Shown here piece after piece: positions 3,513 through 61,155 of a stretch of 64,000 nt of DNA (its first letter is position 1; each line of letters starts with the position of its first letter). The notes beneath the pieces were generated by a model that was not told the origin of the DNA, searched no databases, and was given only the letters and a program-made list of their open reading frames with translations. The position numbers were made by a program, and so were the translations under genes. This stretch comes from Chelydra serpentina (taxonomy: Eukaryota; Chordata; Testudines; Chelydridae), in contig JBAIAC010000023.1 in assembly GCA_037349315.1 (NCBI GenBank), positions 31,286,501 to 31,350,500 on the forward strand. Direction: 5' to 3'.

Positions 3513-3566
<54 letters not shown>

Positions 3567-5690: not shown

Positions 5691-5699
5691 GAATTATTC

Positions 5700-24905: not shown

Positions 24906-24969
24906 GCACATTATTGCACTACCTCCTGCTTTTCATTGTGACCATTTCAAATCAAAACTCCCTCTAAAA

Positions 24970-35481: not shown

Positions 35482-36699
35482 AGATGGAAACTAAACATTC
35501 TTGATCACATCTAATGAAAGAGCAGAGTGTCTTTAAATAATGCTTTGTTTAACTACTAAATAACATTTTAGCACATAGAAGCCAATAAACCTCTGCCCTT
35601 TAATGAGTCTTATGATTGTCTCCACTGGAAAATGAATTTTGTTGTGCATGTCAGCTGTGTTGCATCATTGTCCTCTACAAACTGAAACAGCCACAAAAAG
35701 CCAGGCAGCAAAACAACTACAAACTTTTCTGCTTAATCAGATCAAGATCAGACATGTCCTAGTCTGCAGGTTTACCTTTTAGCTATAAATAAAAACACAC
35801 TAAGATCAACATAAGTACACAACAAAATTGCTATTCAATACTGCAGTGAGTATCCCAGTTTGCCTGTAACACCCCTACTGTAATCTCTGATAATTTCTTG
35901 GGAGCAGAATCAAAGGGCTGCAGTACGTGACTTCAACACTATAAAAAATCCATCCAGAATAAATGGAGAAAACACAAAAACAGCAATTTTCTGGCACTCT
36001 GTTTAAAAGGAGAGTTAAATTAATACATAAAAAGATCTTATCAGCCACAATTCATCTGAGTTATTAATTGAACACCTTCTTGGAAACATGTAGATAAAGA
36101 GGTGTACACCTTAGAGAATTTGAGATAAGAGTGAAAGGAAAAGGAAAGAAATCAGCAGACTTTTGCCAGTTCACTCCCTTAATTGTCATGCTAAGCTTGT
36201 GCAAAGCTTCCCAGAGAAGCATAATGTGAAATTGTAACTAGAACGTAAGCTGATGGTGCAGAAGATAAAAACTTCAGAATTATACTTAAACATACTTATC
36301 TTTAGACACAGAAGAGGACATAAAAGCAGCTGAACAGCATAAAGCTATTCTAAAACAAGACAAATGTATACTCTATGTGTTATAAGCAGTTCAAGCTGCT
36401 TCCTGTGATGAAAAACATGGACTGTATGGTAGACATACTTAGTTAAATATAGTAGATCCCATGATACAGTTGTTTAAAATAATTTACAATAATATTAGTG
36501 TGATGAAAGGAGTGATGTAATTCTGCTCTTTAGAAGGCTCTTAGGCTGAAGGAAACAGAATTTAGCGCAAATATGGTAGCCTGATGGGTTTGTACTGATC
36601 CTGAGAATTTGCTTTTAGAAGATATGTTCACATTATGAAAGGCATGGCCTCAAAAAATAATAGGGGTGTATGGAGTTTTTACCCTGGGTCAGGGGGATT

Positions 36700-36890
36700 A
36701 AGAGAATAATATAATTAGCACTTTTCATCTGTAGATCTCAAAAGAAGGTAAGTATCATTATCCCCATTCTATGGATGGAGACACCAAGAAGTTAAGTGTC
36801 TGAGGGCACAACAGGACTCAACAGAATAGCTGGGACCAAACCCTACATCTCCTAATTCCCTGTCTAAACCCCTATCCTCTGTACCATACT
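36700..36890 (-). mobile_element. MIR SINE
   Basis: Reverse-complement MIR: atcattatccccattctatg, then agttaagtgtctgagggcac and a tRNA-half remnant to about 36890. Confidence 0.75.
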
Positions 36891-37514
36891 TTTCCCCTCA
36901 CAGATCACAGCTAACCATTCAATAGTACAATTCACTTGACCCAGATATGCATCAAAAAGAAACAAAATCTTAAAGAAAAAAATGTCACCAACACAATATT
37001 ATCACTTCTGTGAATGATCCATAATTCAGTATACCACCACCACACAAGAGTCTGGTCATCTTCTCAATAAAACTGCTATTTTTGAGACCTGTTGTCTGCT
37101 CAGAACATTAATTATTACAATAATTCATGAGAACTATTGGAAATTTTATAACTGAAAACCAATGCTGTGAAGTGGTTGTAACTCTGGGCAACAGATATTC
37201 CACAGAATCAAAGAGTGAAATTATTTAAACAGTAAAAGAAATTGAAACATATATATCTGCATTGGCTTAAATATGAAAAAATTGAAAAATTAAGTACTAA
37301 ATAAAATGACCTGATTTTCAGAAATGTTGAGCAATAAACAAAATCACTTAAGTCAATGAGAGCTACAGGTACTCAGCACTTTTTAAAAATCAGGCTATTC
37401 ATATTTAGGTACCTAAACAAAGATTTAGGAGCTTAACTTTGGGTACACAGGTTTGAAAATTTTGGCCATTGTCTATTTAGGTACATGGTATCTGAACAAA
37501 TTATTAATCATATT

Positions 37515-37581
37515 GAGTGAAATCCTGGCCTCTTTGAAGTCAATAGGAGTTTAATTTCAACGGAGCCAGGATTTGAAACTC
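37515..37581. mobile_element. Short palindromic MITE, same family as 14177
   Basis: Good copy: gagtgaaatcctggcc on the left, ggagccaggatttgaaactc on the right, with the gaagtcaatagg core between. Confidence 0.6.
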
Positions 37582-38644
37582 TTACGTCTCAAGGTAAATC
37601 CTAACGTTAAAGGTCTAGAAATCATATTCTCCATATTGGGTGGTAAGCACATTTTGCACATTTTCTAAGCACAATGCAAACTATGCAGTGTAACTGATAT
37701 CTGAGACAAACCTGTTAACCATCTTGCTTGCAATCAGGTGTAGGTGCTCAAACACTGTCTTTTACAAAGTTTAACGGAAGTATATATTAAAATATATGCT
37801 TATTCCATACTTCCATTGCTAAGGAATGGAGGTTTCACAGTGATGTCCTGCTGCAAAGCTTAACAAACATCCATCTAATCAGTATAAAAACTAGGAATCT
37901 GCAACAATTGCAGACTGCAATTTCACTGTAACCCCTTTTTGAGTTGCAAAACAAATAATCACAATCATAGCATATCAGGGCTCATATAAATTGTTTCACT
38001 TTGAATCTACAACTGTAAATGATCATTTTAAGAATGACTCTATTTCACACTATTGATATTTTCAGACGTGTGCATTAGGTTGTGTAATGTGTTGAATATT
38101 TGTGTTGGGTTTTTGCTACAGGTGAATGGATGTTGCCATCTACTGTTCAAAATATATATGATGGATCAGCCAAGACACATACAGTATATCTAGGACAAAC
38201 TTGCTTTGTAGCACTGATTTTAAAAGTGAAAACAAAGACTTAAAAAGTTATAGGAAAGAAACTCATTAAATAGAAATCTGCATAACTGTCCAGGAGAATG
38301 GTTCAAAAGGGAGAAGAAAAATATAGTTCTGCTTCTAAACCATTATTATATTAGGGGCTGATACAACTAGGAGCTGAATGTCCATGGTTGCTTTTTTTGT
38401 GCACATAAAACTGGGTACTCTTAATTACCATTGACTTCAAAAGCTGAAACCCCACTGAAGCAGTTAATTTTTAGATAACGTGTCCTGATCCTGAACTTAT
38501 TATGTTTTGTTAGCAGCAAACAGTGATCCCATAGGAAACAATACATCCCTGTGCTGCCTGTGCAAAGCTTACACACTACTGAAGTCTCACAAACATGCAT
38601 AGACCTTTTTAGTACTCTGTACAGGGATGAATTTCACCCAGAGA

Positions 38645-38890
38645 GGCAACTTGGTCTAGTGGCCTGGGCAATAGGAACTCCTGAGTTTTAATACTCGCTC
38701 TGGGACTGACTTATGTGGCATCAGGAGTCTATGAATTCTCTGGGGACAACATCCAGGCCCCAATGAATTCAATAGGAGTTTTGTGTTGAATTCAATGGAG
38801 CCAGGATTTCACTGAGTTTCAGTTTTCCCTCAGTAGAGCAAGAACAATACTTATGTTTGCAGAGCACTTTGAAGACCGAAGTTGCTAGGT
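38645..38890 (+). mobile_element. MIR SINE interrupted by a MITE
   Basis: The 5' MIR part is at 38645-38740 (aacttggtctagtggcctgg...actcctgagtttt). The 3' part at 38813-38890 begins tgagtttcagttttccctc. Between them, 38747-38813 is a copy of the palindromic MITE (ccaggccccaatgaattcaa...gagccaggatttcact). The MITE is therefore younger than the MIR. Confidence 0.7.
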
Positions 38891-39794
38891 TTTATACAGA
38901 TACAATAGTATTTTTATTTTATTTTACTTAATTTCAATTGGCTAGAGTAAAAGCATTTAAGTCATTTCATTACTTTTTGTTACAAATTCATATTTTTCCA
39001 AATAACACCTAAACAGTAAATCCGGGATTAATGAAAGACAATGTAATTAGGTAATTCAAGGCCCAAAACAGAACAAACAAAAAACCCAGCAATCCACAGA
39101 AAAAAAGATTAATGTGAACTGAGAGAACCTGCACAACTCATAGCATAATGGACCTACTGGGACCAGAGAATTCTTGAGACTTTGAATGACATCCATCCCT
39201 CTGGCTTCAATTTCCTGAATCAAGCATGTTATCTTGAAAATGCAGATCTTTGCAAAGCAAAAAGGGATATATAAATATGAAAAGCCAGTATGTGTTTCAG
39301 TTCCTATTTTTATTAATTATGCAGATTTGATTGAATCACATTTTACATATAAAGATTATTTCCAAAAATTAATACAATGGTTAAGAAAGCTACCTCTCTC
39401 CCACTGCTGATTCATATCTGTATATATGACATCACACCTACATTGTAAAAATTTCCATATACCCTTAGTCTATGAACAGGACTAGGTTAAGTTCTATTAA
39501 TGTTTAGCCAGATTCATCAGTAGTTAAACAATCTTTAAATAAAACAATTATTCATTCTTTCATAACTATTATTCCTCAACAGGACACTTTTTTGTTTGTT
39601 TCACAAGTAACGTCAAGCTGTTTTGTTAGACTTAATATTGTAGTTCAGTTTAAACTCTACCTTCATTTTCTTACACAACCACATAAATATTAGTTTTTTT
39701 AAAAATATATATTTTATTGGAATTTTATTTTACTATAAAAATAAATATTAATAAGAAGCCCTTATATAGTATTTTTAAAGCATAGATCTCACTG

Positions 39795-40073
39795 TTAGGC
39801 AAGGTCTACACAAAAAGTTGTACCAGTTTACCTACTAAAGGTGTGATTTTATACCGATTTTTAACTGGTACAACTTTATGTGTGGACACCACTTTTATAT
39901 GAGTTGAACCTGGCTTATATTGGTTTAGCTTGTGTCAGTAAATTTACAGGCAAACTAAACCAATATAGCTAATTTTAAACTAACAGGAGAGTTCACACAT
40001 GCACACACACAAGTTGCAGTTTACTTGAATTTTAGCTAAACCTGTGCAGCTTCTGCATATAGATAAACCCTTA
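39795..40073. mobile_element. Palindromic non-autonomous DNA transposon
   Basis: The left end ttaggcaaggtctacac...gttgtaccagttta matches in inverted form the right end taaacctgtgcagcttctgc...agataaaccctta. The interior contains further inverted copies (ttttaactggtacaacttta, gtgtggacaccac). No coding capacity. Confidence 0.65.
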
Positions 40074-40084
40074 GATGGTTATGC

Positions 40085-40225
40085 ATTATTATTAATAGTT
40101 TACTGATAGGGGAACTGAGATTATGAGACTTGACTGAAGTCACATAAAGTCAGTGGCAGACCCACGCATAGAACATAGGTCCCGTCTCCAGCCCAGTGTT
40201 CTATCCACTGAACCACAGACAAAAC
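40085..40225 (-). mobile_element. MIR SINE
   Basis: Reverse MIR: ataggggaactgagattatg, then agtcacataaagtcagtggc, then a cagtgttctatccactgaac head. Confidence 0.75.
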
Positions 40226-43017
40226 CAAAATATATTGCAAAACATGCAGCCAAAAGAGCATATTAAAAATAGAGGGGTAAATGTGCATACTTTTGTGTCT
40301 CAAACTAAACAGCACATATAAATTCTTCAGGGCCATCAAGATTCATTTTGTTATAGCATTTTCAGGTCTTCTACAGTCTGAGACATTCCTGCTGTTTTTA
40401 CTGTCCTTTCTATATTATTGCATTGTTATTCCTCTTACCCGATGCACTTCAGCAAATTTACCATTTTTATGCAGGCCAGCTGAGGGGCTGCTTCTAAGAA
40501 ATTAACTGGATTCATGTTTTTACCAGACCCAACAACGCCTCTGGGCAGTGTCTCCTCCAAACTCCCCTCTTTCTACCATTCCCCCCATACTAACCTATTT
40601 AAATAGTAAATTCAATTTTTTTTTAATTGAAAATAAAGGCCCAGTTTGTGCTTGCATGTGACAAACCCACAGAGGGAAAGAAATGCGATGGGGTGCCTAT
40701 CACAGAGTTTTTTCCAAATTCTTTTACTGAGAACTGATGTCTCAATGCCTCAAAACTTCTGCGGCCCGTTCAAGAACCACACAGCTCTTGGGGGATATAT
40801 AGGAGGAGAGGGCCATCTGTGCAGCACTCTGCACTTACAAACTCTCTGATCCCTTTCCTCCTCCAGATCCTTGGCAGCAGCACTGCCACTTCCACTATCC
40901 TGAAAGAGGAAAGGGGTGTCTTGCCACATAGAAGGTCTCTCAAGGAAATTTAACAGCCCCAGGCTGTTCTTTCTTACAGATGCTCCACAGGGCCAGTGGA
41001 GCGATGGGGAACATTTCCCATAGTCTGCCCTCTAGCCACAGCATCTCCCTGCCACTATGGAGAACGCGCCATGGTAAAAAGAGACAATACCAAAGGCAGC
41101 TACCCATCTGCCTGAAGTGGAACCTCCATGCATAAATCACCAGGCACAGTGGGGCCATGTTTTAAAATTAAATCTTAACATGATGCAAACCTTATGAAAG
41201 CAACTTCATAACCTTATTGTATGTAAATCCTTTTCCCCTCCTTGAGTGATGTTCTCTCTCCTTGTATCACATCATGTCATACCTATCCTAGATTATGAGG
41301 TCCTCAAAGCAGGGATCATGTCTTTATTCTTTTTACACACAGCAAGTGTACATATGGCACTGTACACAAGTGTTAAATAAGTCATAAAATAAGTTATGCT
41401 TTAAAAAAAGAATTTAAAACTTGAAACATGTAATGAAGCAAGGGATGACACCATTACAGACCTGCTTCCCCAAGCTGCTCACTCTCACAGGGGCTACTGC
41501 TTGGTACCAGTTGAATTTCATCAAGGGGAGCACTATCAAGTGTGATTTCCTTCACTTTCCGTGGTGGCTGCCACTTACAAATAGTTTTAAGCTCTTAAGA
41601 GGAAAACTTGCTGAGAGCTTCAGTTATTTTGATTCCTGAAAAGCCACAGCAGTGCTCTTTCGAACCATTTCTGTGGTAAAGCACTAGTGCCGCTGGGAAG
41701 GCAGCATAACCGCAATAGCTGAATCTTCCCCCTGATTATTTTTTTGTAGAATCATCAGTAGTAAGGCCCCAAGGCAGCCATCTCACACAAAACTTTGCTT
41801 GCTGCTGTACAAACCAATAGAGGTAAAATTGGAGTCATAGTCCCCAGTTTCATAAAGACCGAAGTTCCCTGAAATTTGTAAATAATTTGTAAATTCCATT
41901 AAAATGAGGTACACAAGGAATAGATTTGCCCCAGTGCTATTTTCACATGCTGGACTGAAGATCTGGAAAACCAAATTAAATATAGTAAGAGTAGGAGCCT
42001 AAGAATTTAAAAAAAAAAGTGGATAACTAACTATGTAAAATTTCCAATATTATTTAATATTGTTGAAACCAGAATGTTATCCTCTTCCCTTCTGTGCTCT
42101 GCAAGGCTCCTTTCTTTCCCTTGCTGTTCAGAATGCCACAGAAGATCCTGGGGTGGTGGATGGTGGTATCAATATGCAGACACACAATTCTAGATCTTTT
42201 TACTGGTCTATATGGACCAGCTCTTAGCTATTAAACTGTCTAGCCAACATATTTATGTTGGTGAGACTGCTGACAAACTCAAACCAAGTACAACAGGTGA
42301 CTTTCAGAGCCAAGTGGGAGTATTTTCAGGGATTTTGAGAGTACCCAGTTATTCAGGGAGCACACCCCTGCTGGCCAGACAGATGCAGCACCTGGGGAAA
42401 GGGAGAAAAGGAATATTCAAGGTTGGTCTCTTGACTGCTCTCTAGAGATGCTGCAAAAGTAGTAGACTCCAGCATGTGTTTGAGGCTCACTCATTTCTCT
42501 TATACAAAGATCTCACCACATTCACTGCCACTGCCATCCCCAGGCTAGCCAACAGCAATGCACACACACAGCTTTCCATGCAACTGATCTGGAAGCTGCG
42601 ATCATTGCAGCACATGGCTGATTTCACTCCTTTGCATAGGAATTACATCTACCTCTGCAAGCTACGACTAACAACATAAAGCCTACCATCACCTAGGCCC
42701 CAAGTACTTGAACAATCATTTCTTGCCCTATTCACTTTCATTTATAAAACATCCAGCCCAACCAGTAAATCAACCCAAGGGTTGATTCTTAGGCATTAGA
42801 TCCTGGCCAGACTGGGACTTCCAGTCAAGTATATTTAATTGTGGACTTTTTTCTCCAATTTCACCTTAGATGGTCCTAGGGCATTTGGCAGAATCCACTT
42901 CTTTCCATCCAGTTTTGCATTTTGGCACTTGCCATCTTCCTTTCCCCTACCTTAACCAATGGCACATCTAGAGGTAATTATTTCATCTAGTCCTAAATTT
43001 GTTTGACAAAAAGGCAT
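40226..43017. other. Intergenic, no gene seen
   Basis: Mixed-composition DNA with an L3/CR1 tail fragment at 41285-41395. No supported gene. Confidence 0.45.
41285..41395 (+). mobile_element. L3/CR1-type LINE 3' fragment
   Basis: Diverged copy of the same 3' end type as 22050-22160: gattatgaggtcctcaaagc, agggatcatgtctttattct, then a gcactgtacacaagtg segment. Confidence 0.55.
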
Positions 43018-43197
43018 GGGGGGAGGGATAGCTCAGTGGTTTGAGCATTGGACTCCTAAACCCAGGATTGAGAGTTCAATCCTTGAGGGGGCCATTTAGG
43101 GATCTGGGGCAAAAATTGGGGATTGGTCCTGCTTTGAGCAGGGGGTTGGACTAGATGAACTCCTAAGGTCCCTTCCAACCCTGATATTCTATGATTT
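43018..43197 (+). mobile_element. Cry-type turtle SINE (tRNA head, CR1-like tail)
   Basis: Full-length tRNA-derived SINE. The head carries a pol III A box (tagctcagtgg, 43029-43039) and B box (agttcaatcc, 43073-43082). A tRNA-unrelated body follows, then a 3' tail ggactagatgaactcctaag with ccttccaaccctgatattct, the shared 3' end of CR1-like LINEs. This SINE type is characteristic of cryptodiran turtles and is the strongest taxonomic marker in the window. It is not a functional tRNA gene. Confidence 0.92.
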
Positions 43198-43973
43198 TTA
43201 AACATAAGACTGAACAGCTGTACCTTGAACTTTTAACTTATAAGAGAATTGAAAGGAGAAAAAAGAAGAGTGAGGGTTTTTTTGCAGAGGGGAGTCCAAC
43301 TATTTAGAGACATGGCAGAGAGACATGTTTAGTTTCTAGGAAAGCATCTTATAGCAATGAACATCGTCAAGCAAGGACTGACACTTGTGTATTTTCAGGT
43401 AGGAACCCCATTCAATTCTATTTAATTGCTGTCAAAGGAAAGGTGAGGGAGGGAGAGCCTTGAAGGACAGAATGGTAGGAACCCTTACTTGAAAATATTT
43501 TACTTTAGGATGTTTTGTTGTGTGAAGTAATCTTGCCTTCTCTTTGGTTAGCAGCAAGTCCCAAAAGCAATATTTGATAGATGTTAAACTAAAGTTATAG
43601 ATGAGAAAACAAAAAAGATGATATTCCAAACTTATCAAGTAAAAATGAGTAAAGCGGTTACTTTGAACTAAGAAATTGGACCACAAGACAATGGTAAAGG
43701 GTTGTAGAGCTTTATATTTTTAGTAAGAACAAATTCATTAGAAGTGTTATACATAACCTCTATCAAAACACGAACATGTGTTTTCTTTTACTAATGCACA
43801 AGACATACACACAGCTTTCTTACTTTTCCTTTGGCAATGGAGCATGCATTTCCCCCACTCACTCCACTCTGCCTTATTCTACCCCCATTTTACATGTAAA
43901 GAAAGAAAACAGCCACTAGGTGGTGCTGGTCAAACATCAATTAAGTTACTAAACTGCAACTATACCATGCAGT
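43198..43973. other. Intergenic, no gene seen
   Basis: AT-rich. No supported feature. Confidence 0.45.
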
Positions 43974-44132
43974 TAGGCCTAGTCTACACTTAAAATGTAG
44001 GTTGAGATAGCTATTCACTTAGGGAGGTGGCGTTCTCACACAAAAAGAAAAACCCCTTCCGTCAGCGTAGGCTGCATATACACTTTGGGGTTATGCCAGC
44101 ACAGTATAGCCCCATAGTGTAAACATGGCCTA
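43974..44132. mobile_element. Non-autonomous DNA transposon, internally deleted
   Basis: Inverted ends ggcctagtctacact and agtgtaaacatggcc, flanked by TA on both sides. An internal segment (cccttccgtcagcgtaggct) is typical of turtle DNA elements whose ends read GGCCTAGTCTACACT. No coding capacity. Confidence 0.6.
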
Positions 44133-44167
44133 AGATACGCATATTCATCCAAAATATGATCTTAAAA

Positions 44168-44425
44168 CTTTAGTTGACCTGGTTATATCACTCATATGGG
44201 TGTGAAAAATTCACAGCCCTGAGATATGTAGTTAATCCAATCTAAGGCCCGGTACAGACACCAGGAGGCTGACAAGAATTTTTCCTTTGACACAGCTACC
44301 CCCTCTTGAGGGGATGGGTTTACTAGTGACAGCAAAACTCCTTCGGTCACTGTAGTGTCTACAGTACAGAAGTACAGCTGCCATGCTGCTTCCAGCGAGG
44401 ACGTAGCCTGGGTTTTGCTTAGGCA
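44168..44425. mobile_element. Fragment of a related DNA transposon
   Basis: Contains gggtgtgaaaaattcacagc, a gtacagacaccagg block and an agctgccatgctgc block. These match, in order, the interior of the same broad family as the element at 43974, but the ends are decayed. Confidence 0.45.
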
Positions 44426-45124
44426 GGGTCTGTACAAAGAGGTAAATTAGACACGCCTGAACACTTTCTCCTACACACTTATCACGCCTCCCATTGCACA
44501 ACCCAGGACATTATTTGCAGACAGTTTTCCTTTGTGCTTGTATAGACAGGATTGTTGTGTTTCTCCCACAATTAGCCTCCATGGCCAAGTATTATTTTAT
44601 CAACTGCAATTGTTTAATAGCATGGTAACAGCAATCTGATAGATTAATAATTTAGATTGCTTCATAATTAAATCAGTGTTTTAATATCACAAGCCTCAGT
44701 CTGAGTATCACTCTGTGTATGAGTTGCAGCACTTAAAAATTAAAAATCTACACAGCAAGATTGATGGGCAAGTGAACTGAAATCAACTCTCGGTCTGACT
44801 TTTTTATTCCTGGACAAAAAGAGGCTTCTCCTCTAAGAGAGGCTGAACATTCAAGGCCCCAGAATCCCTACTTTTGCTTTTACCTGCAGATCTCCTGTTG
44901 GGTCCAGCAAGTCCACAGATAATGAAATTGGGTCTCTGTGAACCTCCCTTCTCCCAACAACCTCTTTACCATGCTTTGACCCTGCTATTCACCAAACTCC
45001 CTCAAACACACACACAGCCAACCTGTGACCCTTCTTGCCATACTCACACACTACCAAGCCTGAAGAGTCAAAGAGCACAGCCCTGTGTTCCTGGCGGGGA
45101 GGGGGCCAGAAGGAGAAGAGTAAC

Positions 45125-46185
45125 TGATCATGGGTGTTTGGGGGGCCACAGAGCAGGACCCTGTGCACGTGTTGGGGTCCCAGAGCAGGGCCCTGGTCAT
45201 GGAGCAGGGTCCCAGGGGACATTTGGGGGGGGGGTCAGAGAGTAGGGCCCCCAACTTGTTTGGGGGGGTCTCACAGAGCAGGGTGGGGCAGGCATCACAG
45301 AGTGGGGTCCCGGCAAGTATTTGGTGGGGCCGGGGTCACAGAGCAAGGCCCCGGGCACAAGTGTCGGGGGGAGGGGGTCACGGAGCGGGGCCCCAAGAGT
45401 GAGTGTCAGGTGGAGGGGGCCCCGAGAGTGAGTGTTGGGGGGGAGGGGGTCACAGAGCGAGGCCCCGAGAGTGAGTGTCGGGGGGCGGAGGAGGGAGTCA
45501 CGGAGCGGGGCCCCGGGCACGAGCGTTGGGGAGGAGGGGCTCACGGAGCGGGGCCCCAGGCACGAGTTTCGGGGGGGGGGGGGGGGAGGAGAGAGTCGCG
45601 GGGCCCCGGGCACGAGTTTCGGGGGGGGTGTCACGGAGCGGGGCCCCGGGCACGAGTTTCGGGGGGGGAGGGGGGTCACGGAGCGGGGCCCCGGGCGCGA
45701 GTTTCGGGGGGGGCAGGGGGGGTCACGGAGCGGGGCCCCGGGCGCGAGTTTCGGGGGGGCAGGGGGGGTCACGGAGCGGGGCCCCGGGCGCGAGTTTCGG
45801 GGGGGCAGGGGGGGTCACGGAGCGGGGCCCCGGGCGCGAGTTTCGGGGGGGGGGGTCACGGAGCGGGGCCCCGGGCGCGAGGAGGGGGGGGGGTCACGGA
45901 GCGGGGCCCCGGGCGCGAGGAGGGGGGGGGGTCACGGAGCGGGGCCCCGGGCGCGAGTTTCGGAGGGGGGAGGGGGGGTCACGGAGCGGAGCCCCGGGCA
46001 CGAGTTTCGGGGGGGGAGGGGGGTCACGGAGCGGGGCCCCGGGCGCGAGTTTCGGAGGGGGGAGGGGGGGTCACGGAGCGGAGCCCCGGGCACGAGTTTC
46101 GGGGGGGGGAGGGGGGTCACGGAGCGGGGCCCCGGGCACGAGTTTCGGGGGGGGGAGGGGGTCATGGAGCGGGGCCCCGGGGTAA
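45125..46185. repeat. GC-rich minisatellite (about 46-bp unit) downstream of TERC
   Basis: About two dozen tandem units built as GGTCACGGAGCGGGGCCCCG, then GGCGCGAGTTTCGG, then a G run with optional CA. Period is 46 bp in the clean part (unit starts near 45726, 45772 and 45818); shorter units of about 37-41 bp lack part of GTTTCGG or of the G run. The array is most uniform at 45640-46185 and decays gradually towards 45125. The plus strand is G-rich with many runs of 5-9 G. It produces three long but meaningless open frames of up to 418 codons. Confidence 0.95.
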
Positions 46186-46380: not shown

Positions 46381-46789
46381 GCGTGTCTGAGCGCAGCCCC
46401 GACCGCGGGCCCCACAGCTTAGGGGAGGGCGGTGGCGCAGGGGCTGCCGCTCACGTTTGCTCTCCCGGCCGACGGGCTCGGGACCCGCCCTTCCACCCCG
46501 GCCGCCCCCGAGGCTGACAGAGACGAACTCTTCGCGGCAGCAGTGGCGCGAGCCGGCTGACCGCGGCCTCACCGGGGCGGGGCGGCGGGGACTTCGCTGG
46601 CGGGCCCCACCACAGGCCCAGGTCGGCGTGGGAGGGGAGGGCCCCTCGCTGACGTTTTTTGGTTGGCGTCTCCGCCCGCTCCCCCCGTCCGCTGAAAGTC
46701 AGCGAGTAAAACAGCGGACGGCTGCAGCGGGGAGGGGTCACATTTCGCTTAGGGTTAGAAAGACTGAGCCCCCACCTGCCGCCGCAGCG
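46381..46789 (-). ncRNA. TERC: Telomerase RNA component (TERC)
   Basis: The minus strand carries all the vertebrate telomerase RNA landmarks in order. The template CTAACCCTAA is at 46758-46749. The P2b hairpin has arms CCGTCCGCTG/CAGCGGACGG at 46721-46685. The P3 pseudoknot strand CTCGCTGAC (46706-46698) pairs perfectly with GTCAGCGAG (46653-46645), which is preceded by an A6 run. CR4/CR5 spans about 46570-46502, with CCGCGAAGAG and a P6.1 stem (AGAG/CTCT). The H box AGAGCA is at 46463-46458. A 3' hairpin follows, then the ACA box at 46386-46384 followed by three bases, which sets the 3' end at 46381. The 5' end is placed about 31 nt from the TATA box and is approximate. The RNA is the template subunit of telomerase, stabilised by H/ACA proteins in the nucleus and Cajal bodies. 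Its length of about 409 nt is slightly shorter than human (451). Position beside ACTRT3 agrees with the mammalian locus. Confidence 0.96.
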
Positions 46790-46935
46790 GTCGGACCCGC
46801 CTGGCCGCGGGTCTTATATACCTTCCACCGTCCCGCCCTCCCGCGCATGGATTGGCTAGCGGGAGTCTCCTCTATTCCCATTGGCTCGGCGGGGCACGGA
46901 TGGGGAATGGTGTCACTAGCGGGAGATTGGAAATG
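46790..46935 (-). promoter_or_regulatory. TERC: TERC promoter (TATA, GC box, three CCAAT boxes)
   Basis: On the minus strand upstream of the RNA: TATATAA at 46820-46814, a GC box GGGCGGGAC at 46838-46830, and CCAAT at 46855-46851, 46884-46880 and 46930-46926. A TATA box plus proximal CCAAT and GC boxes is the known pol II architecture of vertebrate TERC promoters. A further GC-rich GGGCGGAGTCA motif lies just upstream (about 46938-46948). Confidence 0.88.
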
Positions 46936-47764: not shown

Positions 47765-48683
47765 TCAGAAGCATTTTCTATGCACTATGTTAGGCCCAAT
47801 TTCCCTGTACTCAGCCATGGTAATCCACATTTGCTGGAAGGCAGAGAGGGAGGCGAGGATGGAGCCCCCCATCCAAACAGAGAGCTTCCTGTCAGGGGGA
47901 GCCATGATCTTCACCTCAGTGTCACTGGGGACCATGCGCATTAACTCTTTGGTCATGCGCTCAGCCAGGCCAGGGAAGAGGCTGGAACCACCAGACAGGA
48001 TTATGTTGGAGTAAAAGTTGGTCCTCAGGTCAATGTCACACTTCATGATGGTATTGAAGCAGAGCTTGTCAATCCCTGGGGCCTCCATGCCAATATTAGA
48101 TGGGCAGAAAAGGGTCTCAGGGCAGCGGAACCTTTGATTCTGGACTTTAATAACCTGCCCATCAGGCAGCCTGTAAGATTTCTCTACTTCACTTGGTTTC
48201 TTAGCCATCTCCTCCTCTGGATACAGACACACATAACACATGTTCTCCTTCATGTCTCGTACAATCTCCCTTTCAGCTGTACTGACCAGGGAAATACCGC
48301 TCTCTTTAAGGATTCTCATCAGGTAGTCTGTAAGGTCACGGCCAGCCAGGTCAAGCCGGAGAACGGCATGGGACAAGCAGTAGCCCTCAAAGATAGGTAC
48401 AGTGTGGGTAACGCCATCACCAGAGTCCATCACACAGCCCGTGGTAAGGCCTGACGCATAGAGTGCCAGTACGGCCTGGATGGCCACATAAAGGGCTGGT
48501 ACCTCAAAGCGCTCAAAGAGAATCTTTGTCATATGTTCTCGATTGACCAGTGGGTTGAGCGGTGCCTCGGTGAACAGGGCTGGCCGCTCACTTGCCTTCA
48601 TCTTCAGGTCATGCTCATAGACATTCTTCCACACAGCCTCCATGTCCGCCCAAGATGTGACAATCCCATGTTCCACTGGGTAC
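47765..48683 (-). CDS. ACTRT3: ACTRT3 (ARPM1) exon 2, actin-related protein T3
   Basis: Terminal coding exon of 919 bp, joined to exon 1 at 52962. The acceptor is ATGTAG/GTACCC, and the split codon AG|G restores the actin phrase [12 protein letters not shown]. The full protein is 373 aa, the length of actin. Actin-fold landmarks are kept: His73, the second phosphate loop [11 protein letters not shown], adenine-pocket [26 protein letters not shown], and the C-terminus IVHRKCF. Features specific to ACTRT3 rather than conventional actin are [22 protein letters not shown] and [12 protein letters not shown]. In mammals ACTRT3 is a testis-enriched protein of the sperm perinuclear theca reported to bind profilin III. 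Human ACTRT3 also has two exons and sits beside TERC and MYNN. The frame is intact. Confidence 0.94.
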
Positions 48684-49191
48684 CTACATGCAGTTCAAAC
48701 AGATGAAAAACAAAGGCAGCATTTTCCTACCGTAGTCACCATGCCCACAACCCCAGCATTCGCCAGGTTCCCCTTGTCTGGTGCTTCCCAAGTATAGCAT
48801 TTCATGAAGTATACTGTATATAAAACTCTAAGTCACAAGTGTTTCCTTGAAAAATAAAAAAATAATGGCCTGGGCTCAAGAAAGTTGTTGATTGCCTCCT
48901 GGAGCTGCTGAACATCCTTAACTCTCAGCACATCTAAGAAGGGATGTAACACATTGCAGGATTAGGATCTACATTTTAAAAAGTATCTAAACATGATTTT
49001 TAAAATATTACTGAAAAGTTCAATATGAATCATTTACAATTTATTAATTTCATTATTGATAATGTATGTTTATTAAACATTATTGTGGGAGTATTTCTTC
49101 TGCCAGACCTCAAAAATGAATCCAGTAGATTAATAGCTAGAAGATTTACCTTACTTTCTGATAGCACTCAACAAATATAGAGAGTGAAAAG

Positions 49192-49600
49192 CCGGGGTGG
49201 CCAACCTGAGCCTGAGAAGGAGCCAGAATTTACCAGTGTACATTGCCAAAGAGCCACATTAATATATCAGCAGCCCCCCAGCAGCTCCCCACACCCACTC
49301 CCAGTGTCTCTCACCTACCAGCAGCCCCGCAATCAGCGCCTCCTCCTCCTTCCTCTCTGCAGCTGTTTTGTGGCTTGCAGGAGGCTGGCGGGGCGGGGAG
49401 GAGGAGTAAGGGCACGGCAGGTTCAGGGGAGGGGGCGAGGTCTGTGGCAGAGCCAGGGGTTGAGCAGTGAGCACCTCCCGGCACATTGGAAAGTTGGCAC
49501 CTATAGCTCCAGCCCCGGATTCGGTGCCTATACAAGGAGCTGCATATTAACTTTTTAAGAGCCGCATATGGCTCCGGAGTCATAGGTTGGCCATCCCTGG
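49192..49600. mobile_element. hAT-like non-autonomous DNA transposon
   Basis: Terminal inverted repeats GGGGTGGCCAACCTGAG (left) and its diverged complement aggttggccatccctgg (right). The CAGGGRTGGCCAACC type is common among hAT (Charlie-like) elements. The GC-rich interior has no conserved frame. The expected 8-bp target duplication is not recognisable. Confidence 0.65.
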
Positions 49601-49875
49601 TGTAATGGGTAGAGAAAAATGATTAAAGATTTTTGGAAGTCCCAGACATTAGCCTTGTCTTCACTAGAGAAATCTTGCAAAAATTCACCTTCAACGTTGG
49701 GGCCGTAGCATACACTGGGTGCTGGCAGTGTTTTAAGCACCATGTTGATTAATTCTGATCTGGACAGGGCTAGATCACTAGGTGTTTAAAACACCGCTGG
49801 TGGCAGTGGTCAATGGTAGTTCTCCCAACATTGCTAATGCCAGTGGAGCATTAGCAGTGGTAGGCAGAAACTGAA

Positions 49876-50038
49876 GACCAGATTCTCTGTTGGTCTGCAT
49901 CTTGTGCAGTCATTTACACCAGAGCTTAGTGAATACAAAGTGGGTGCAAAATGCTACTATTCTAATTTAGTAGAATTTTACACCTATTATGCACTCCTTT
50001 TCAACTGGCACAAGTTGCAGTGCATGGAGAATCTGGCC
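49876..50038. mobile_element. MITE with GACCAGATTCTC ends
   Basis: Inverted ends gaccagattctc and gagaatctggcc. Internally, tcttgtgcagtcatttacacc is mirrored by a diverged ggcacaagttgcagtgcatg. About 163 bp and noncoding. Confidence 0.6.
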
Positions 50039-50519
50039 CTACACAGCCCTTGGTGTTAACACTGAAAAGAAGCACTTTGTAGCTCTCTAAAGTTGTTTCA
50101 GGCTGGCTGGCTGGAGACACAAGAAGGGCTGGTCTACACAGAAATTTGCCTCATAATAATGTTATGCTCTTGGTGAAGCATTGTTATGGGTTGAGTTAAA
50201 AACTCATTGAGATTGATGTGTGAACACTCCCTTCACTTAAGATAGTGGTAAGAGTCATTTAAGAGGCCGCACCCAAAACGAAGCCTCTTCTGCCCAGACT
50301 CTATTAGTCTGGGCAGACTAATAGAGTCTGCCCAGAAACTAGCACCATGTAGGCAAAGGGTTCAACTGGGTATTGTGTGTATTGCATGTGACTGTGTGAG
50401 AGAACAAACAGACCATGTCTACATTACCGAGACTATAGCAGCATAACCCTGTAGTGTAGACTCAGCCTACATCAATTTAAGGTTTTAATTCACATCTTTT
50501 GTTATTCCATGTAAAGAGT

Positions 50520-50574
50520 GAGTGTGTGTGTGTGTGTGTGTGCAAGTGTGTGTGTGCGAGTGTGTGTGTGTGTG
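50520..50574. repeat. (TG)n microsatellite, interrupted
   Basis: Three TG blocks separated by gcaag and gcgag, inside the ACTRT3 intron. Confidence 0.92.
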
Positions 50575-52961
50575 AATTGCATGGAAATAACAAAAGGTAT
50601 TCATTAAAACTAGTTTAATTATATTAGTCCAAGTTTCTGCATAGACCACACTAAAGAGAGCCCAGTCTTCACATTCAGCTTTTCCTTGCAGTAATAAAGT
50701 GCTAGTAACCTTTGTCTTTAAATTCCAATCCTGCAGAGAGAGGTTGTGGATTTGTCTAGTCTAGAGTTTGTAGTCCTGTTTTAATTTGTGGGAATTGGTT
50801 GTTTGTAGTTTACCCTGGGCTAAGTCCTAAAGTAAAGTGTAAACATTTGTATCCAGAAAAAAAATGTCTGTGGAGTATCTAGTTTAGCACTTTACACTCA
50901 CATTTGCTAATTTGAACTAATTGGTAAGCTAGTCTAGACAAGCCCTGAGAGATCTATGTATTTGTCTTTCCTTTTTCTGTCTCCTTTTTAACTCTTCATT
51001 GTGTCCAATTTTCCAGTCTGTTCTTTCTTTTCATTCTCTCCAATTTTTATTTTTCTTCTTTTAGTGCTTCCTTCTCGCCACCAGATCCCTTGAATTCTTC
51101 TTCTCCTAACCCAGAACTTTTCCTATTCTCTCCTCTCATTCCTCTCCCTGCTACTACGCCCTACACAACCTTCCCACCTATTTGTAGGTGCATTGTCAAT
51201 CAATAGCTTTATCTACATCAGAGAAAAGCACCATTATATTTTACAGTGGTTCCTGTGGAACTGTTGTAAATTGTAATAGGGTAGTGTGTCCACAAACTAG
51301 CCATCTTGGCTAATATAAAACTGTTCAGCATGTCACACCACTCCTTACAATCATTGTACTTCTACTGTAAAATGGGTGCAATGTTTCCAGCACAGATCCC
51401 TAAAGCAGTGTTTTGTAGGAGTTATCCATAACTAGAGAAGTGCTATACCATTTAAAAAAAAACTGGAACTGTATAAATCAGTGTATTTCAATATACAAAG
51501 TGGCACATGCTTTATGGAAGCTTTTCTATTTTTTTAAACAAGAAAACTGCGAAAATTGAATGCAGCACACCTTATTAAACAGAAAACTCTAATGTGTAAA
51601 AATAATAGAAGCGTCAGTAATTTATCACAGGAATTATAGTTTGAAATACAAGAAACACTGTACATTGCGACTGCTAGAGAGATTACAAGAGCAGTAGTGT
51701 ATTATTGTGTGTAGCTGCAGTGTAGGCCTATGAAAAGGTGCGGCTGCAATTACAGCATTTTCTGTCACATTAGCACTGCAATGGGGCAGGGTGATGCAGG
51801 ATACAATGGTGCTCGGGAAGGACAACTGCAGCAGTACACTCCTGCAACTGCTTTTGTCTGTGGACATGAGGTGTGTTTCAAGCATAATAGGTGTTTGCAA
51901 TGTCGCTTTCGTACCCAAATGCGCTAATGCAGCTACATGTCAGAAGAGATTGTTTTGCACACATCCCCATGCCCTTTGGAAACCTTCACACTGGCTGCAA
52001 ATGTGCATAAAGCTGCAGCTTCGAACTGCACAGAATTTGGGATGCATCTTTCTCTGTCTCTACCCTCTCTCTCTTTGTTTCTGTGGCCCCCTTCCCTTCT
52101 TTTCCACATTTCCAGCCTCCTCTGTTAGCAGTGATTTCCCTACACCCCCCCTGAATTCCCCCCCCCCAGTTTTGTGAACTAGTTACATGCCAATTTAGTG
52201 ACCCCCCCCCCCAGTAAATTCAGACACTCCCCCCCCCCCATTTCAATTCCTGGGGAGGCCACTGTCTGTTAGTCTCTACTTTCTTCCTTGTTTTGCTCTC
52301 CCTCCCACTTTTTGACCTTGTTTGGCCTTCGCTCGTGTTTGTCTTTGGGATACTCATATCAGTCTGTGCAGAGCAAAAGCCAATAGCAACAGCCTTTCAT
52401 TTGGAAAAGGCCCTTCAGGTTCCTTAACAGTTTCCTTCTGCAGCCCCTTCCATGATCAAACATTTAAGTGACTGATACAAAGGCAAACTCTTCCTCCTGT
52501 ACCAAACTCTCTCCATGAGGAGAGGCCTGCAAAGGAGACTGCTATCTGGGGCAATACTCCCTCCTTGTTCAGATGCCAGCCTTCTTGTCCCAGCTCACCC
52601 TGCATCCACTTAACTGAGGCATCACAACCTTCCCTCCCACAAGGCTAACGGTACCTGATGGCAGGGCCTCCCCAACCCTGCTTGGCATGCTTTTCCTCCA
52701 TGAGCAGGGATGGCTCCTCCTCCCTCCTCAGTACGTGAAGGACACATTCTTCACTAAACCAACCCACCTCTCCACCTTGGGCAGGGGACCCTGTCATCTC
52801 CTTTCCTACCTGGTACACAACGAAGAGGATCCCCCTACTTGGCCTGCTTCCTACCCACTTTCCATCTTTCCACGTCCCCCTCTTTAGACCAGGTGGAGAG
52901 GACCCGCTCCTTGGCCTGCTCTCCTCATTTCACCAGGCCTAGCCCCACCACTCTCTGATAC

Positions 52962-53164
52962 CTGATGGAGAGGATCCCCCGCTTGGCCTGCGCCTCATCA
53001 CCAATGTAGAGGTCCTTCTGGCCTGCCCCCAGCATCACAGACTTGGCTTTAGGCCGGCCTGTTATGTTGCTGTAGATGTAACGTGGTTCCTTGTCCCCAG
53101 CTAAGCCTGCCTTGATCAGGCCCGAGCCATTGTCTATAACCACAGCTGGTAACAGATCCCCCAT
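52962..53164 (-). CDS. ACTRT3: ACTRT3 exon 1 (actin N-terminal subdomain)
   Basis: Encodes residues 1-67 plus two bases of codon 68. It starts [20 protein letters not shown], with the first phosphate loop DNGSG at 11-15 and Lys18 exactly as numbered in actin. It ends KRGILSI before a CAG/GTATCA donor. The DNase-I loop (about 39-50) keeps Met44 but has Ala40, Lys41 and Ala47 where conventional actin has His, Gln and Met. An in-frame ATG lies 26 codons upstream (53242). The start at 53164 is preferred because it gives actin length and has G at -3 and G at +4, whereas the upstream ATG has C at -3. Mammalian ACTRT3 likewise begins close to the VVIDNGSG motif. Confidence 0.9.
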
Positions 53165-54916
53165 CCCAGGAGGTGGCTTTCCACCTGCCACTTCCCACTC
53201 AGACCACTGGGGAGTAGTGGGGGCCAGCAACTTCCCCTTCATGTGATAATCCCCTCCTATTATGACAGAGGCACATACAGGAGTAGTGCCCTGGTTGCTA
53301 AGACACCCCCTCAGCCCTTATCAAGCTAAGAAAAGTCCAGCCTGTTCACTACTGCATGGGAAACTCCCTGAATGTTGGAGGAGCTGGCTTGGAGCCCATG
53401 ATTTAACTTGCTACCTGTCACTGTAGTAGCTGATTGCCTTCCACATGAAAACTAATATCAATAACAACATGCCTGGGGCTCCCTCCTTTTTAGGGTAAAA
53501 TATTTGATTGGTGTAGGGTTTTTGTTTTTTAAATGTTATTAATATACTTTTTAAACAATTAGAATAATCTACTAGGGAGGCCCATGATCTGAAAGTTACC
53601 CCTGGGAATTGATGGTGTTGATTCTGGTGGTGGGACTTTTCCCTCGGATTCAGTAATGAAATCTTCTAAAATGCCCCTGGGGCAGGCAGGACCTTGAGAC
53701 TGGCAAACCTGCCATCATCACGTGGGCAGACCCAAGCTTTGCTCTGGACAGTGGCGGGGAATCTCTCCTTATTCTGTTGCTTGAAAGGGAGGCTGGACAG
53801 ATCCACAGAGTACTGAATTAGTTCTCTGGGTTCCCAATACACAAGTCTCAGTAGATGCCTATTTTGCTTTTGCCTAAGGCAGGTCCTAGAAGCTTAATTT
53901 AACATATGGGATATGAGGTCTTGATGATTTGAGGTCATTAAAGAGTCCAAGACACTTTTTGTAAGAGTCAAGCTGTTAACCATTGTGTCCAAGACAAATT
54001 CCAACTCAGGAATTGCATTTTGCAGTCTAGGTTCCCAATATAGTTTTAACTGGGCACAGTCTTCTTTACTTTCTCTAAAGTTTAACTGAGTGGTATTGTT
54101 AAACAGTGGATGAATTTCATCCCAAAGATGGTTGCATTTCTGAGGTGAATGAAGTGATTCCTATATATAGTTTGAATATCAATTTGTTAAATTTGTAAAG
54201 GGATTTGTTATTTTTTGGGATTAAAGACACTGTATGTATGTTATTGCTAATATAAATACAACCTATTTATTTTTCTTCTTATAGCTCTTTTCAGCTTTTT
54301 ATATGAGAAATTTTGCCCTCTTCAATGTTGCCATAATGTTCTTTTTTTCATGGATCTACAAATTAAGGCCAGGATTTTGTAACTGGGTCTATGTAGGTGG
54401 CTATTGGGGTCGAGCCATGCGCATCCAATTGCAGGATCAGAGCCATAACTTCCACTATTTACTAACACAATGCTGCATTGTTTAGATACAAACATCACCG
54501 GGAGACGGTTTGATTTCTGATTTTAAAAAAAATCCTGCTTTTACTGTCCTTGTTTTTTAAATTAACAGAAATATTTGACTGATTTTTGATTTTGTAAAGT
54601 TATTTACATTGTAGTCCAAAACTGAGCTCCCTTTAATACTACAGTACTAAAAGAATATTGAGTCACTTAATTTACAGGAATAATATTTTATTAGAATTCA
54701 GACAGTAATTTTAATACACTCTAGTTGTTGAAGGAATATCTTCCACCAACCATGCAATCTATAACACGAAAGATTAACCATAAATGGTGGTATGCGGGGG
54801 GGTGTGGGTGGGGGGAAGCATGCTTGTGACTCAAAAGAAAGTCAAATATGTATGTGTACCATGAAAAACACCATGCTGATCACGAAATAAAAGCTCCTCC
54901 CACCCGCACTATGTAT
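53165..54916. other. ACTRT3 upstream flank
   Basis: No gene is recognised. ACTRT3 5' UTR and promoter should lie here (or in the CpG-rich block at 55.15-55.72 kb if there is a noncoding first exon), but no convincing TATA box or donor-acceptor pair was identified. Confidence 0.4.
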
Positions 54917-54929
54917 CTGTTTCAACTAG

Positions 54930-55028
54930 ATACATTCACATTTCCACTGCTTGCATCCGAAGAAGTGGACGAAAGCTTATGCTTCAATACCTCTGTTAGT
55001 CTATAAGGTGCCACAGGACCCTTTGTCG
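54930..55028 (+). mobile_element. Penelope/SINE-like element with 13-bp target duplication
   Basis: Same family as 18196-18282 but on the plus strand and with a longer 5' part (attcacatttccactgcttg). It is flanked by ctgtttcaactag at 54917-54929 and 55029-55041, a perfect 13-bp duplication. The stem between ccgaaga and GAAA is collapsed here (agtggac), so any ribozyme-like fold is lost in this copy. Confidence 0.8.
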
Positions 55029-55149
55029 CTGTTTCAACTAGGTAGCCTTTGAAAATGCCAAGGAAGGAGGATTATGCCCTCCTTGAGCCCTGCCGCTGGT
55101 CTTTGCACCCAGCACAGGAGAAAGTAGCTAGACTGACGCTTGTGGCTGG

Positions 55150-55720
55150 GTAGGTGTCAAAAGGAGGAGCCTGCTGCTTAGCCACAGGCCCGCTGCGGAC
55201 AGTCCCCAAAGGGGGGTATGGCGCACGCTGCGGATGGGCGCACACTGCAGGCCCCTTGAGGGAGCGGGAGGGAACCCGGGGTTATCAAACACGCTCCCGG
55301 GGTGATGCATCGGGCGGGGGAGGGCGGGGGTGCTGCGCACGCCGCGCAGGCGGACTGTGGAACCCAGATACGGGTCTCAGCCCTCTCGCCGGAGGGGCTG
55401 TGCTGCGCCTGCCCCGGAGCTGGGGGGCGAGTGGAGTGGGTCACGTGGGTGCTGTGTTGTGCACGTGCGGGGTGCAGGGTGGGGGGAGATTGATGCCTAC
55501 TCAGTGGCGAATCGATTCATTGCCTCCTCGGTGGCGGGTGCTGAGCAATGCGCTGTTGCAGTCCCCAGGAGAGGGTGCTGCCCCTGCGGGGCGCTAGGGT
55601 GCCATGCCTGATGGGGGAGTGGGGTACAGTGCTTGGACCAGAGGGGCTAATCCATAGTCACAGGGGGACCGTGGACGCTCCGGAAGCGCAGTCGTGTGGA
55701 GCCCTGTTGCGGTGGCGGGG
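55150..55720. promoter_or_regulatory. CpG-rich block between ACTRT3 and the tRNA gene
   Basis: High CpG density in an otherwise AT-rich interval, with loosely repeated ggggctgtgctgcgcctgc-like phrases at 55325-55345 and 55395-55415. It could be an unmethylated promoter island (a distal ACTRT3 first exon or an unknown transcript) or a decayed GC-rich tandem repeat. Open frames on both strands (up to 170 codons at 55548-56060) lack known domains and run into the tRNA neighbourhood. Confidence 0.4.
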
Positions 55721-55948
55721 AGAGCGATCATCCCCCCCACACACACACACAAACTGTTTTCACTGTGATGTTTCAGGCAATTTTTGCGTCAGTCTAACCC
55801 ATATTTGTGTTAGGAGCTCCACTGAGGGCCTGGAGACCTGGTCAGATGCACATGTCCTCCACCTGAATCTAGGCAGGGGTTGCTTCTCCGGCAAATGTGC
55901 CGGTTTCAGGCGTAACGTAAATAAAGATGCTGGAAATGGCAACTCTTA

Positions 55949-56162
55949 TTCGCTCCAAATTGGTGTTTTAAAACTCTTGTTAGAACACTCAGGGTACTCC
56001 AGCACATTCATAAAAGAGAGAGTTTCCGAACTCTTCACCAGGCAAGTTTCCGTAGTGTAGTGGTTATCACGTTCGCCTAACACGCGAAAGGTCCCCGGTT
56101 CGAAACCGGGCGGAAACAGTTTTGTTAAATACACCTTCGCTCTAAATTGGTGTTTTAAAACT
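55949..56162. repeat. 27-bp direct repeats bracketing the tRNA gene
   Basis: A 27-bp sequence at 55949-55975 (starting ttcgctccaaattggtgttt) recurs at 56136-56162 with one C-to-T difference. Start-to-start spacing is 187 bp, and tRNA-Val lies between the copies. This fits either a former tandem duplication of a tRNA unit or a bracketed insertion. Confidence 0.85.
56046..56118 (+). tRNA. tRNA-Val (anticodon AAC)
   Basis: 73-bp cloverleaf. The acceptor stem GTTTCCG pairs with CGGAAAC and the discriminator base is A. The D arm with A box is TAGTGTAGTGGTTATCACG. The anticodon stem TTCGC/GCGAA encloses loop CTAACAC, with anticodon AAC at 56079-56081. The T arm with B box is CCCCGGTTCGAAACCGGG. 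There is no intron. A pol III terminator TTTT follows at 56120-56123. The sequence is essentially that of vertebrate tRNA-Val(AAC), so the gene looks functional. It decodes GUU (and GUC/GUA after A-to-I34). Confidence 0.97.
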
Positions 56163-57292
56163 TTTTAAAAATACATTGTACTTTTACGTTAGAAAAAAAA
56201 GTGTACATTTCCAAAAGGGGCAGTTTACAATCTCTTTGACTGGTACCGTTTTAATCCTTTCATTTTGCCAGGATGAGATCTTCGAAAAAGTAAGTAAAGT
56301 GCTTTATAGCATTGACGAGCCAGCTGTCTGGTTTTTTTTGTTTGTTTGTTTTGTTTTTAAATAATTAATACTTGAATGTACACTAGTGGAATCCTTTCAA
56401 ATTAATAGTTTTGTTAGATTCTTTTAAAATAGCAGTTGAGTCTTGAGCACTGTTGTAGGTTTCAATTATGTGTATTTATCATACTCATATATGAGAAGAG
56501 CCTAAGAGCAATATCAAAGCCCTGAAAGTAATATTAAACAGATTATTATTTTGCTAGTCTTTCTTTGTTAACAATGAAATTTGTCTAACATTAAAGTTGA
56601 CTCTTTCTGTACCATCCTGTGATCTCCATGGATAACATAAAATAAAAATTAGTATAGAGTATTAATTATTATGTGTTATTTTTTATTATTCTGATATTGA
56701 TTAATTATTCAAATAATTCCTTAAGAAACACTTCTTTTGCAAAGCCTTTCAATGTGAAAGAAAGAAAGAAAGAGCTGGTACATTCTTTGTTTGAATTGTA
56801 TTATTTGTCTAATGCATGCTCTGACCATGCAAAACGTTTACACACATAGCTTTATTCCTCTGAGTAGTCCCATTGTGTTCAAGTAAAATTGCTCACGAGC
56901 ATAAATGCTTGCAGGATTGGGGCATTAGCATGTATTCTTTTGGGCAGGGACCATATTTTCCTATGTGTAAAGGAAATGGTGCAAAGTATACTGATGGTCC
57001 TCAGTAAACAACAAATAATAATAGAGCAAGCAATAATACAACTAATGTAGCAAATAGGTTACTTTGCAATGATAATAATGGAAACAATTGTTAAAACATA
57101 TATATTGTTATAATACAATTGGACGTTAGATTTTCAACAAGAAATTGTAATTCTGTGCATATCTTTAAAGTGCAGATAGGGGGTTTACATATCTTGCTAT
57201 CTTTGTCAGACAATTAGCCTGAAATGCACTGTCCGAACCTTTGACAGGCAATATTAGTGCTGATAAATAATTATTGTAATATTGTCACTTTC
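56163..57292. other. Intergenic, AT-rich, no gene seen
   Basis: Includes a possible decayed L3/CR1 tail near 56935-57010 (gggcagggaccatattttcc). Nothing else is supported. Confidence 0.45.
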
Positions 57293-57305
57293 ATTCATAT
57301 TATTG

Positions 57306-57797
57306 TCAAGTATCTGTAGAAGCGACAAAGAGTCCTGTGGCACCTTATAGACTAACAGACGTATTGGAGCATAAGCTTTCGTGGGTGAATAGCCACTTCG
57401 GGTATTCACCCACAAACAGGGCTGGTGCAAGGAAGTTTAGTGCCCTAGGCGAAACTTCCTTGCACCAGCCCTGCGCCCCCCCCTCCCCGCAGCAACCATT
57501 CCCCCTCCCCGGCAGCTCCCGCACCCCTCATGGGCTGGCAGCTCAGCCCCCCGCCTGCGGCAGCCTCCCCCCACCCGCAACTCCCCCCCCCCCCCAGCTC
57601 CCAGCTCAGCCACGGAGCCGGGAGGGTGGGAGGCAGCCACGGCCAGCCGCCCCCGCACACACACCCCCCCCGGCGCTCCGGGCGCCCTAGGCGACTGCCT
57701 AGGGTCGCCTAGTAGACGCGCCGGCCCTGCCCATGAAAGCTTATATGCTCCAATACATCTGTTAGTCTATAAGGTGCCACAGGACTCTTTGTCGCTT
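57306..57797. mobile_element. Inverted pair (fold-back) of the Penelope/SINE-like element
   Basis: The left arm from 57321 (agcgacaaagagtcctgtgg...gcataagctttcgtggg) and the right arm ending 57796 are about 65-bp near-perfect inverted repeats, differing by a CpG change and a 2-bp insertion. The whole unit is flanked by the 13-bp direct repeat attcatattattg at 57293-57305 and 57798-57810. It was therefore inserted as one unit in this palindromic form. It is now split by the hAT-like element at 57417-57729. Confidence 0.8.
57417..57729. mobile_element. hAT-like element nested in the fold-back element
   Basis: Starts CAGGGCTGGTGCAAGGAAG and ends CGCCGGCCCTG. The flanking 8-mers cccacaaa (57409-57416) and cccatgaa (57730-57737) are the two deamination products of a single CCCACGAA target, which matches the intact host sequence. 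The first 57 bp are themselves a hairpin with perfect 22-bp arms. The interior is C-rich (57476-57670) with no conserved frame. Confidence 0.8.
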
Positions 57798-57810
57798 ATT
57801 CATATTATTG

Positions 57811-58539: not shown

Positions 58540-58704
58540 TGGGGGAGGCAGGTCCTGTTAGCTACGTAACGTGGAGCCTGGTTGGCTCGAATGTGGTTGG
58601 GGGCAGAGACCGGAAGTGACATGCCAGAAGCGGACAAGCGGTGCGTGTGCTGTCATCATAAAATGGCGGCCTGAGGCGAACGGACTCGGTCTCCCCTTCC
58701 TCAG
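58540..58704 (+). promoter_or_regulatory. MYNN: MYNN promoter and noncoding exon 1
   Basis: CpG-rich and TATA-less, with an ETS/GABP site ACCGGAAGTGAC at 58609-58620 and a YY1 site AAAATGGCGGC at 58660-58670. This is the classic pairing of housekeeping promoters, with initiation near the YY1 motif. A consensus donor TCAG/GTGTGT ends the likely untranslated exon at 58704. It would join the acceptor at 60128, since human MYNN also begins with a noncoding exon. GC-rich sequence continues to about 59340 inside intron 1. Confidence 0.75.
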
Positions 58705-60128: not shown

Positions 60129-60155
60129 GCCAAGACGCTCCATTCCTCTACCAAA

Positions 60156-60421
60156 ATGCAGTATTCCCATCACTGTGAGCACCTTCTAGAGAGACTGAAC
60201 AAGCAGCGAGAGGCAGGCTTCCTTTGTGACTGCACGGTAGTCATTGGTGAATTCCAGTTCAAAGCTCACAGAAATGTGCTTGCCTCCTTCAGCGAGTACT
60301 TTGGTGCATTTTACAGGGATGCCTCTGACAGTAATGTGGTTTTGGATCAGACACAAGTGAAGGCTGATGGATTTCAGAAACTCCTGGAGTTTATATACAC
60401 GGGAAACTTAAACCTTGACAG
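60156..60421 (+). CDS. MYNN: MYNN (myoneurin) first coding exon, BTB domain N-terminus
   Basis: ATG at 60156, 27 bp after the acceptor at 60128. It encodes 88 codons plus two bases: MQYSHHCEHLLERLNKQREA, then a BTB/POZ core with GFLCDCTVVIGEFQFKAHRN, VLASFSEYFGAFYRD and FQKLLEFIYTGNLNLD, ending at a CAG/GTAACA donor (60422). This is nearly identical to the myoneurin N-terminus. Myoneurin is a nuclear BTB-C2H2 zinc-finger transcription factor; the BTB domain mediates dimerisation and corepressor contact. The C-terminal BTB helices and all zinc fingers are in exons beyond the window. The exon end after LNLD and phase 2 fit the vertebrate gene. The frame runs only one codon past the donor before a stop, supporting splicing. 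Confidence 0.96.
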
Positions 60422-60840
60422 GTAACATAACACCCCCCCCCCCCTTTTTTTAAGGGGACTTATCCAGTACTGATTTCGTTGCCATAAATTATGGAAGAAC
60501 ACATTTAATTTCAGATACAGTACATACCAAAGAATAAAGCTGTCTACATGGCTTTTAAAATACTTCCATGCATATAAACCAACTAGGATTCCTTTATTAT
60601 TTTCTATTCTAAGTGTGTAATAGTGTCTAACCTGTTAAAACTGAAATTGGTTTCCTATTTTCTCTCTTGCTAAGGTATCTAAACTCATTATTAGCTTTTA
60701 TAATTGCTGTCACCTAATTATTTTTCAGATTGAGTTGCTGTCGTTCTCTCTGTCTCCTCACCCATTCATCTAGGCTCAATTTCTACACCAAAGTCTTTCT
60801 TTATATGTGTGCCAGACTCACCTTGGCGACACTGATCTCA

Positions 60841-61155
<315 letters not shown>

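Follow-up and report, generated by a model that had tools for sequence, protein, structure and literature searches.

The question raised by this locus is whether a G+C-rich segment of the minus strand, which an earlier note had taken for a reptilian telomerase RNA gene, is indeed the telomerase RNA gene (TERC) of a turtle, and whether it is a working copy. Telomerase RNA supplies the enzyme with an internal template for the renewal of chromosome ends. The evidence consists of the sequence itself, a covariance match, the complementarity of the strands proposed to pair, and the neighbouring genes. The covariance check named in the earlier note was run with Rfam 15 over the whole window (the complete 64,000-base stretch of DNA analysed). 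It returned a very strong match to the vertebrate telomerase RNA family, RF00024, at 46786-46381 of the minus strand (205.9 bits, E 7.7e-52), which spans model positions 1-443 of 443, i.e. the full length, and clears the curated gathering threshold of 70 bits. A tRNA was the only other of the two matches that reached the gathering threshold in the window. The matched segment has a G+C content of 0.72, which gives stable folds by chance, but a fortuitous resemblance is hard to reconcile with such an E-value. Nor would an H/ACA RNA of another kind fit, as we know of no such RNA with a template, a pseudoknot and P6.1. We consider it extremely improbable that either explanation, chance or another H/ACA RNA, is right, and place the probability that a turtle TERC gene lies at this minus-strand locus at about 0.97.

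The coordinates 46381-46789 and the strand proposed earlier were right, with a 5′ end off by a few bases; the 3′ end was placed at 46381 because of the ACA box. The template, the pseudoknot, CR4/CR5 with P6.1, the H box and the ACA box also lay at the positions given for them earlier (Table 1). The statement that the gene has no open frame needs qualifying: stop-to-stop frames of 178 and 120 amino acids, of a sort common in G+C-rich sequence, overlap TERC on the same strand, but the RNA contains a single AUG, at 46743, and this is directly followed by UGA.

Table 1. Features of the TERC locus and its surroundings (window positions)
Feature	Position	Strand	Basis
TERC, telomerase RNA gene	46381..46790	-	RF00024 full-model match; putative 5′ end about 46790-46786
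TATA box, TATATAA	46814..46820	-	motif; about 30 nt upstream of the putative start
CCAAT, proximal	46851..46855	-	motif search
CCAAT, two further	46884-46880 and 46930-46926	-	motif search
P1b 5′ strand, candidate template boundary element	46766..46773	-	pairs with 46644-46637
Template CUAACCCUAA (CTAACCCTAA), for TTAGGG repeats	46758-46749	-	RF00024 alignment and motif search
P2a, J2a/2b and P2b	46679..46734	-	RNA fold
P3 5′ strand, canonical register, GCUGACUUU	46695..46703	-	transfer of human pairs
P3 3′ strand, AAA(C)GUCAGC, C46654 bulged	46648..46657	-	complementarity check
P1b 3′ strand	46637..46644	-	complementarity check
CR4/CR5 three-way junction (P5, P6a/P6b, P6.1)	46509..46571	-	RF00024 alignment, fold
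P6.1 hairpin, AGAG-UUCGU-CUCU	46531-46519	-	RF00024 alignment, fold
H box, AGAGCA(AA)	46456..46463	-	RF00024 alignment, motif
3′ hairpin (P7/P8, CR7)	46388..46453	-	RF00024 alignment, fold
CAB box, UAAG	46421-46418	-	RF00024 alignment, motif
ACA box, three bases before the 3′ end	46384..46386	-	RF00024 alignment, motif
ACTRT3, two coding exons, next gene upstream	47768..53164	-	Pfam, protein alignment
MYNN, BTB-domain exon	60195..60422	+	Pfam PF00651

According to PMC8480181, the template of vertebrate telomerase RNAs comprises 1.5-2 telomeric repeats and lies in the 5′ domain. The turtle template CUAACCCUAA is of this kind, and this ten-base word occurs a single time in the window, both strands counted. 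Taking a start near 46790, the leader preceding the template would be 32 nt long, or 28 nt if the start of the RF00024 match (46786) is used. The earlier note had estimated about 31 nt and contrasted this with the 45 nt it gave for human TERC. By that figure the turtle leader is indeed about 13 to 17 nt shorter, but the Rfam consensus has 32 nt before the template, so the leader of turtle TERC is normal for the family and it is the human one that exceeds the consensus. The idea of a peculiarly short leader was dropped.

P1 is reported to set the template boundary in vertebrates (PMC8480181, PMC4705647). A possible P1b with eight pairs, two of them G-U, was found 7 nt from the template. Its pairing energy was not distinctive for sequence this rich in G+C: when the leader was shuffled against a wide partner segment, 252 of 2000 shuffles reached that of P1 (the best duplex in this test differed from the P1 of the model), and when both strands were shuffled, with the partner confined to the P1 region, 714 of 5000 did so. 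A claim of significance for P1 through its pairing energy thus failed twice and was abandoned. The unconstrained minimum-energy fold was without P1, the leader pairing instead with the P2a region, and the Rfam alignment flags 6 of 19 P1 pairs as non-standard. P1 is plausible, being backed by its position and not proven by energy.

In the predicted pseudoknot, P2a is formed by 46734-46729 with 46684-46679, the J2a/2b bulge by 7 nt (46728-46722), and P2b by 46721-46712 with 46694-46685. P2b had 10 pairs in an unconstrained fold of 46748-46658 and eight in a constrained fold, in which the mask also covered the last two. The earlier note had described a perfect 9-bp P3 between 46706-46698 and 46653-46645. 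The positions and the complementarity (nine of nine) stood, and a 9-bp Watson-Crick match between the P3 regions arose in only 4 of 3000 shuffles; the register, however, was not the canonical one when set against the human pairs. In human TERC, U113-A176, U114-A175 and U115-A174 adjoin the last P2b pair, G98-C116 (PMC4705647). Transferring these pairs gave a canonical P3 that lies 3 nt off the register first proposed and contains a one-base bulge: GCUGAC (46703-46698) pairs with 46648-46653 (6/6), UUU (46697-46695) pairs with AAA (46655-46657; 3/3), and C46654 is bulged between them. The outer CUC/GAG pairs of the first register fall outside this helix.

These CUC and GAG triplets might instead extend P3 to 12 pairs with the bulged C, flush against P1b, which, if true, would mean a stiffer P1b-P3 junction and a J2b/3 (5 nt) shorter than the human one. 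We regard this arrangement as unlikely. The Rfam consensus has CUc in the upstream triplet facing a non-complementary cgc, so that the triplet is conserved even where it has nothing to pair with, and a linker of 5 nt would seem sterically strained in spanning 12 pairs; the complementarity of the two triplets is probably a coincidence. With the canonical P3, the predicted pairing yields a P2b/P3 pseudoknot with a U-rich J2b/3 and an A-rich strand. The consensus J2b/3 reads UUUUuCUc, while that of turtle TERC is UUUUACUC; at 46707 of the minus strand an A stands in J2b/3 where the consensus has u. At 46654 of the same strand, the P3 bulge is C, against u in the consensus and U in human TERC.

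Further downstream, the CR4/CR5 domain with its P6.1 hairpin was recovered, followed by an H box, a 3′ hairpin and, 3 nt before the RNA ends, an ACA box. For the CAB box, described as ugAG in the P8 loop (PMC10811338, PMC4041459), the turtle RNA keeps the A and the G and differs at the second base (UAAG, against UGAG with an upper-case G in the Rfam consensus). The base-specific contacts of TCAB1 reported for the human structure involve A413 and G414 (PMC10811338), and both of these bases are retained in the turtle.

The C at the P3 bulge and the A in the CAB box could speak for a defunct locus, either a pseudogene of TERC or a retrocopy. Yet the Rfam consensus gives the bulge in lower case, its mark of weaker conservation; the changed CAB base lies outside the two reported base-specific contacts (PMC10811338); and a decayed copy does not sit well with a match to the full length of RF00024. 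The surroundings of the gene argue against a retrocopy in particular, as promoter motifs, usually missing from retrocopies, are present: besides the TATA box, three CCAAT and three GGGCGG motifs occur within the 210 bases upstream of 46790. Transcription generally starts about 30 nt from a TATA box, which for the one at 46820-46814 would put the start near 46790. In human TERC, a single CCAAT box has been described in the core promoter, where NF-Y binds it (PMC546012).

The neighbouring genes bear on the same point. ACTRT3 has exons at about 53164-52958 and 48691-47768. Eight proteins, taken from the best 120 of 7990 proteins, were aligned to the window; the large exon showed 96% identity to Caretta caretta and to Emys orbicularis (isoform X2), 91% to a Carettochelys fragment, 85% to Alligator, 84% to Sphenodon and 80% to a skink, and a Gopherus isoform aligned in two pieces (96% and 92%). 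With 96% identity to Caretta and 85% to Alligator, the DNA is that of a turtle. The BTB exon found beyond ACTRT3 had myoneurin (2vpk_A) as its best solved-structure match (E 1.7e-41; next chain, 4.5e-28), and was the one Pfam match in the three plus-strand frames of 53200-63102. Other vertebrates have these same genes next to TERC; in the human genome the order is TERC-ACTRT3-MYNN. Since the turtle TERC has the same two genes beside it, it very probably occupies the orthologous locus and is no retrocopy, and we hold a defunct copy of either kind to be very unlikely. The RF00024 match, these neighbours and the turtle-like ACTRT3 together bear out the original assignment to a reptilian telomerase RNA gene.

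Other elements were noted in the window. A G+C-rich minisatellite (45598-46181; period 46, 13.3 copies, 90% matches), whose plus strand contains long runs of G, ends about 200 bases past the 3′ end of TERC. The tRNA match (56046-56118, plus strand, 65.1 bits) lies between ACTRT3 and the BTB exon of MYNN; its anticodon, read by eye, is AAC, and it is probably a tRNA-Val. A 128-amino-acid stop-to-stop frame on the minus strand (28263-28649) resembles by eye a piece of a retrotransposon polyprotein; no Pfam family was matched at E 0.001 in a scan covering it, nor anywhere in the three minus-strand frames of 1-9900, 19801-29700 and 35000-44900.

The known family serves as the model for predicting that the turtle gene is transcribed, from which start, how its RNA folds in the cell, and that it binds protein and is active. 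With the TATA box at 46820 presumably positioning RNA polymerase II, transcription would begin near 46790 and yield an RNA of about 406 to 410 nt. The 5′ half, the template-pseudoknot domain, would hold CUAACCCUAA in the telomerase reverse transcriptase, and P1b would halt copying at the 5′ edge of the template. Binding of the reverse transcriptase would also involve CR4/CR5 with P6.1. The 3′ half, the H/ACA domain, would fix the 3′ end at 46381, and the CAB box would take the RNA to Cajal bodies.

The vertebrate telomerase RNA set of Chen 2000 reportedly included a turtle. In PMC8480181, 42 vertebrate telomerase RNAs are credited to that study. Among the matches listed in a title search for turtle or reptile telomerase RNA, none dealt with the sequence of a turtle TERC. 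In loggerhead fibroblasts, as described in PMC6010431, human TERT gave no clear telomerase activity before human TERC was supplied as well; turtle TERC was not used, as far as reported there, and telomeres of about 50 kb are cited in the same study. An exact turtle TERC sequence makes a species-matched reconstitution of telomerase possible, and it reveals positions of the pseudoknot and the CAB box that depart from the family consensus.

Compared with RF00024, turtle TERC shares the template, the P2b/P3 pseudoknot, CR4/CR5 with P6.1, the H/ACA 3′ domain, the position of the CAB box and a leader close to the consensus length, and shows gaps relative to the model in outer P1, J2a.1/3 and the P6b loop. 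Human TERC (hTR) has the same architecture, and ACTRT3 upstream on the same strand and then MYNN, but its RNA is 451 nt long, against a predicted 406-410 nt in the turtle. Turtle TERC appears complete and is ordinary in kind, an added member of a known family that opens no new class.
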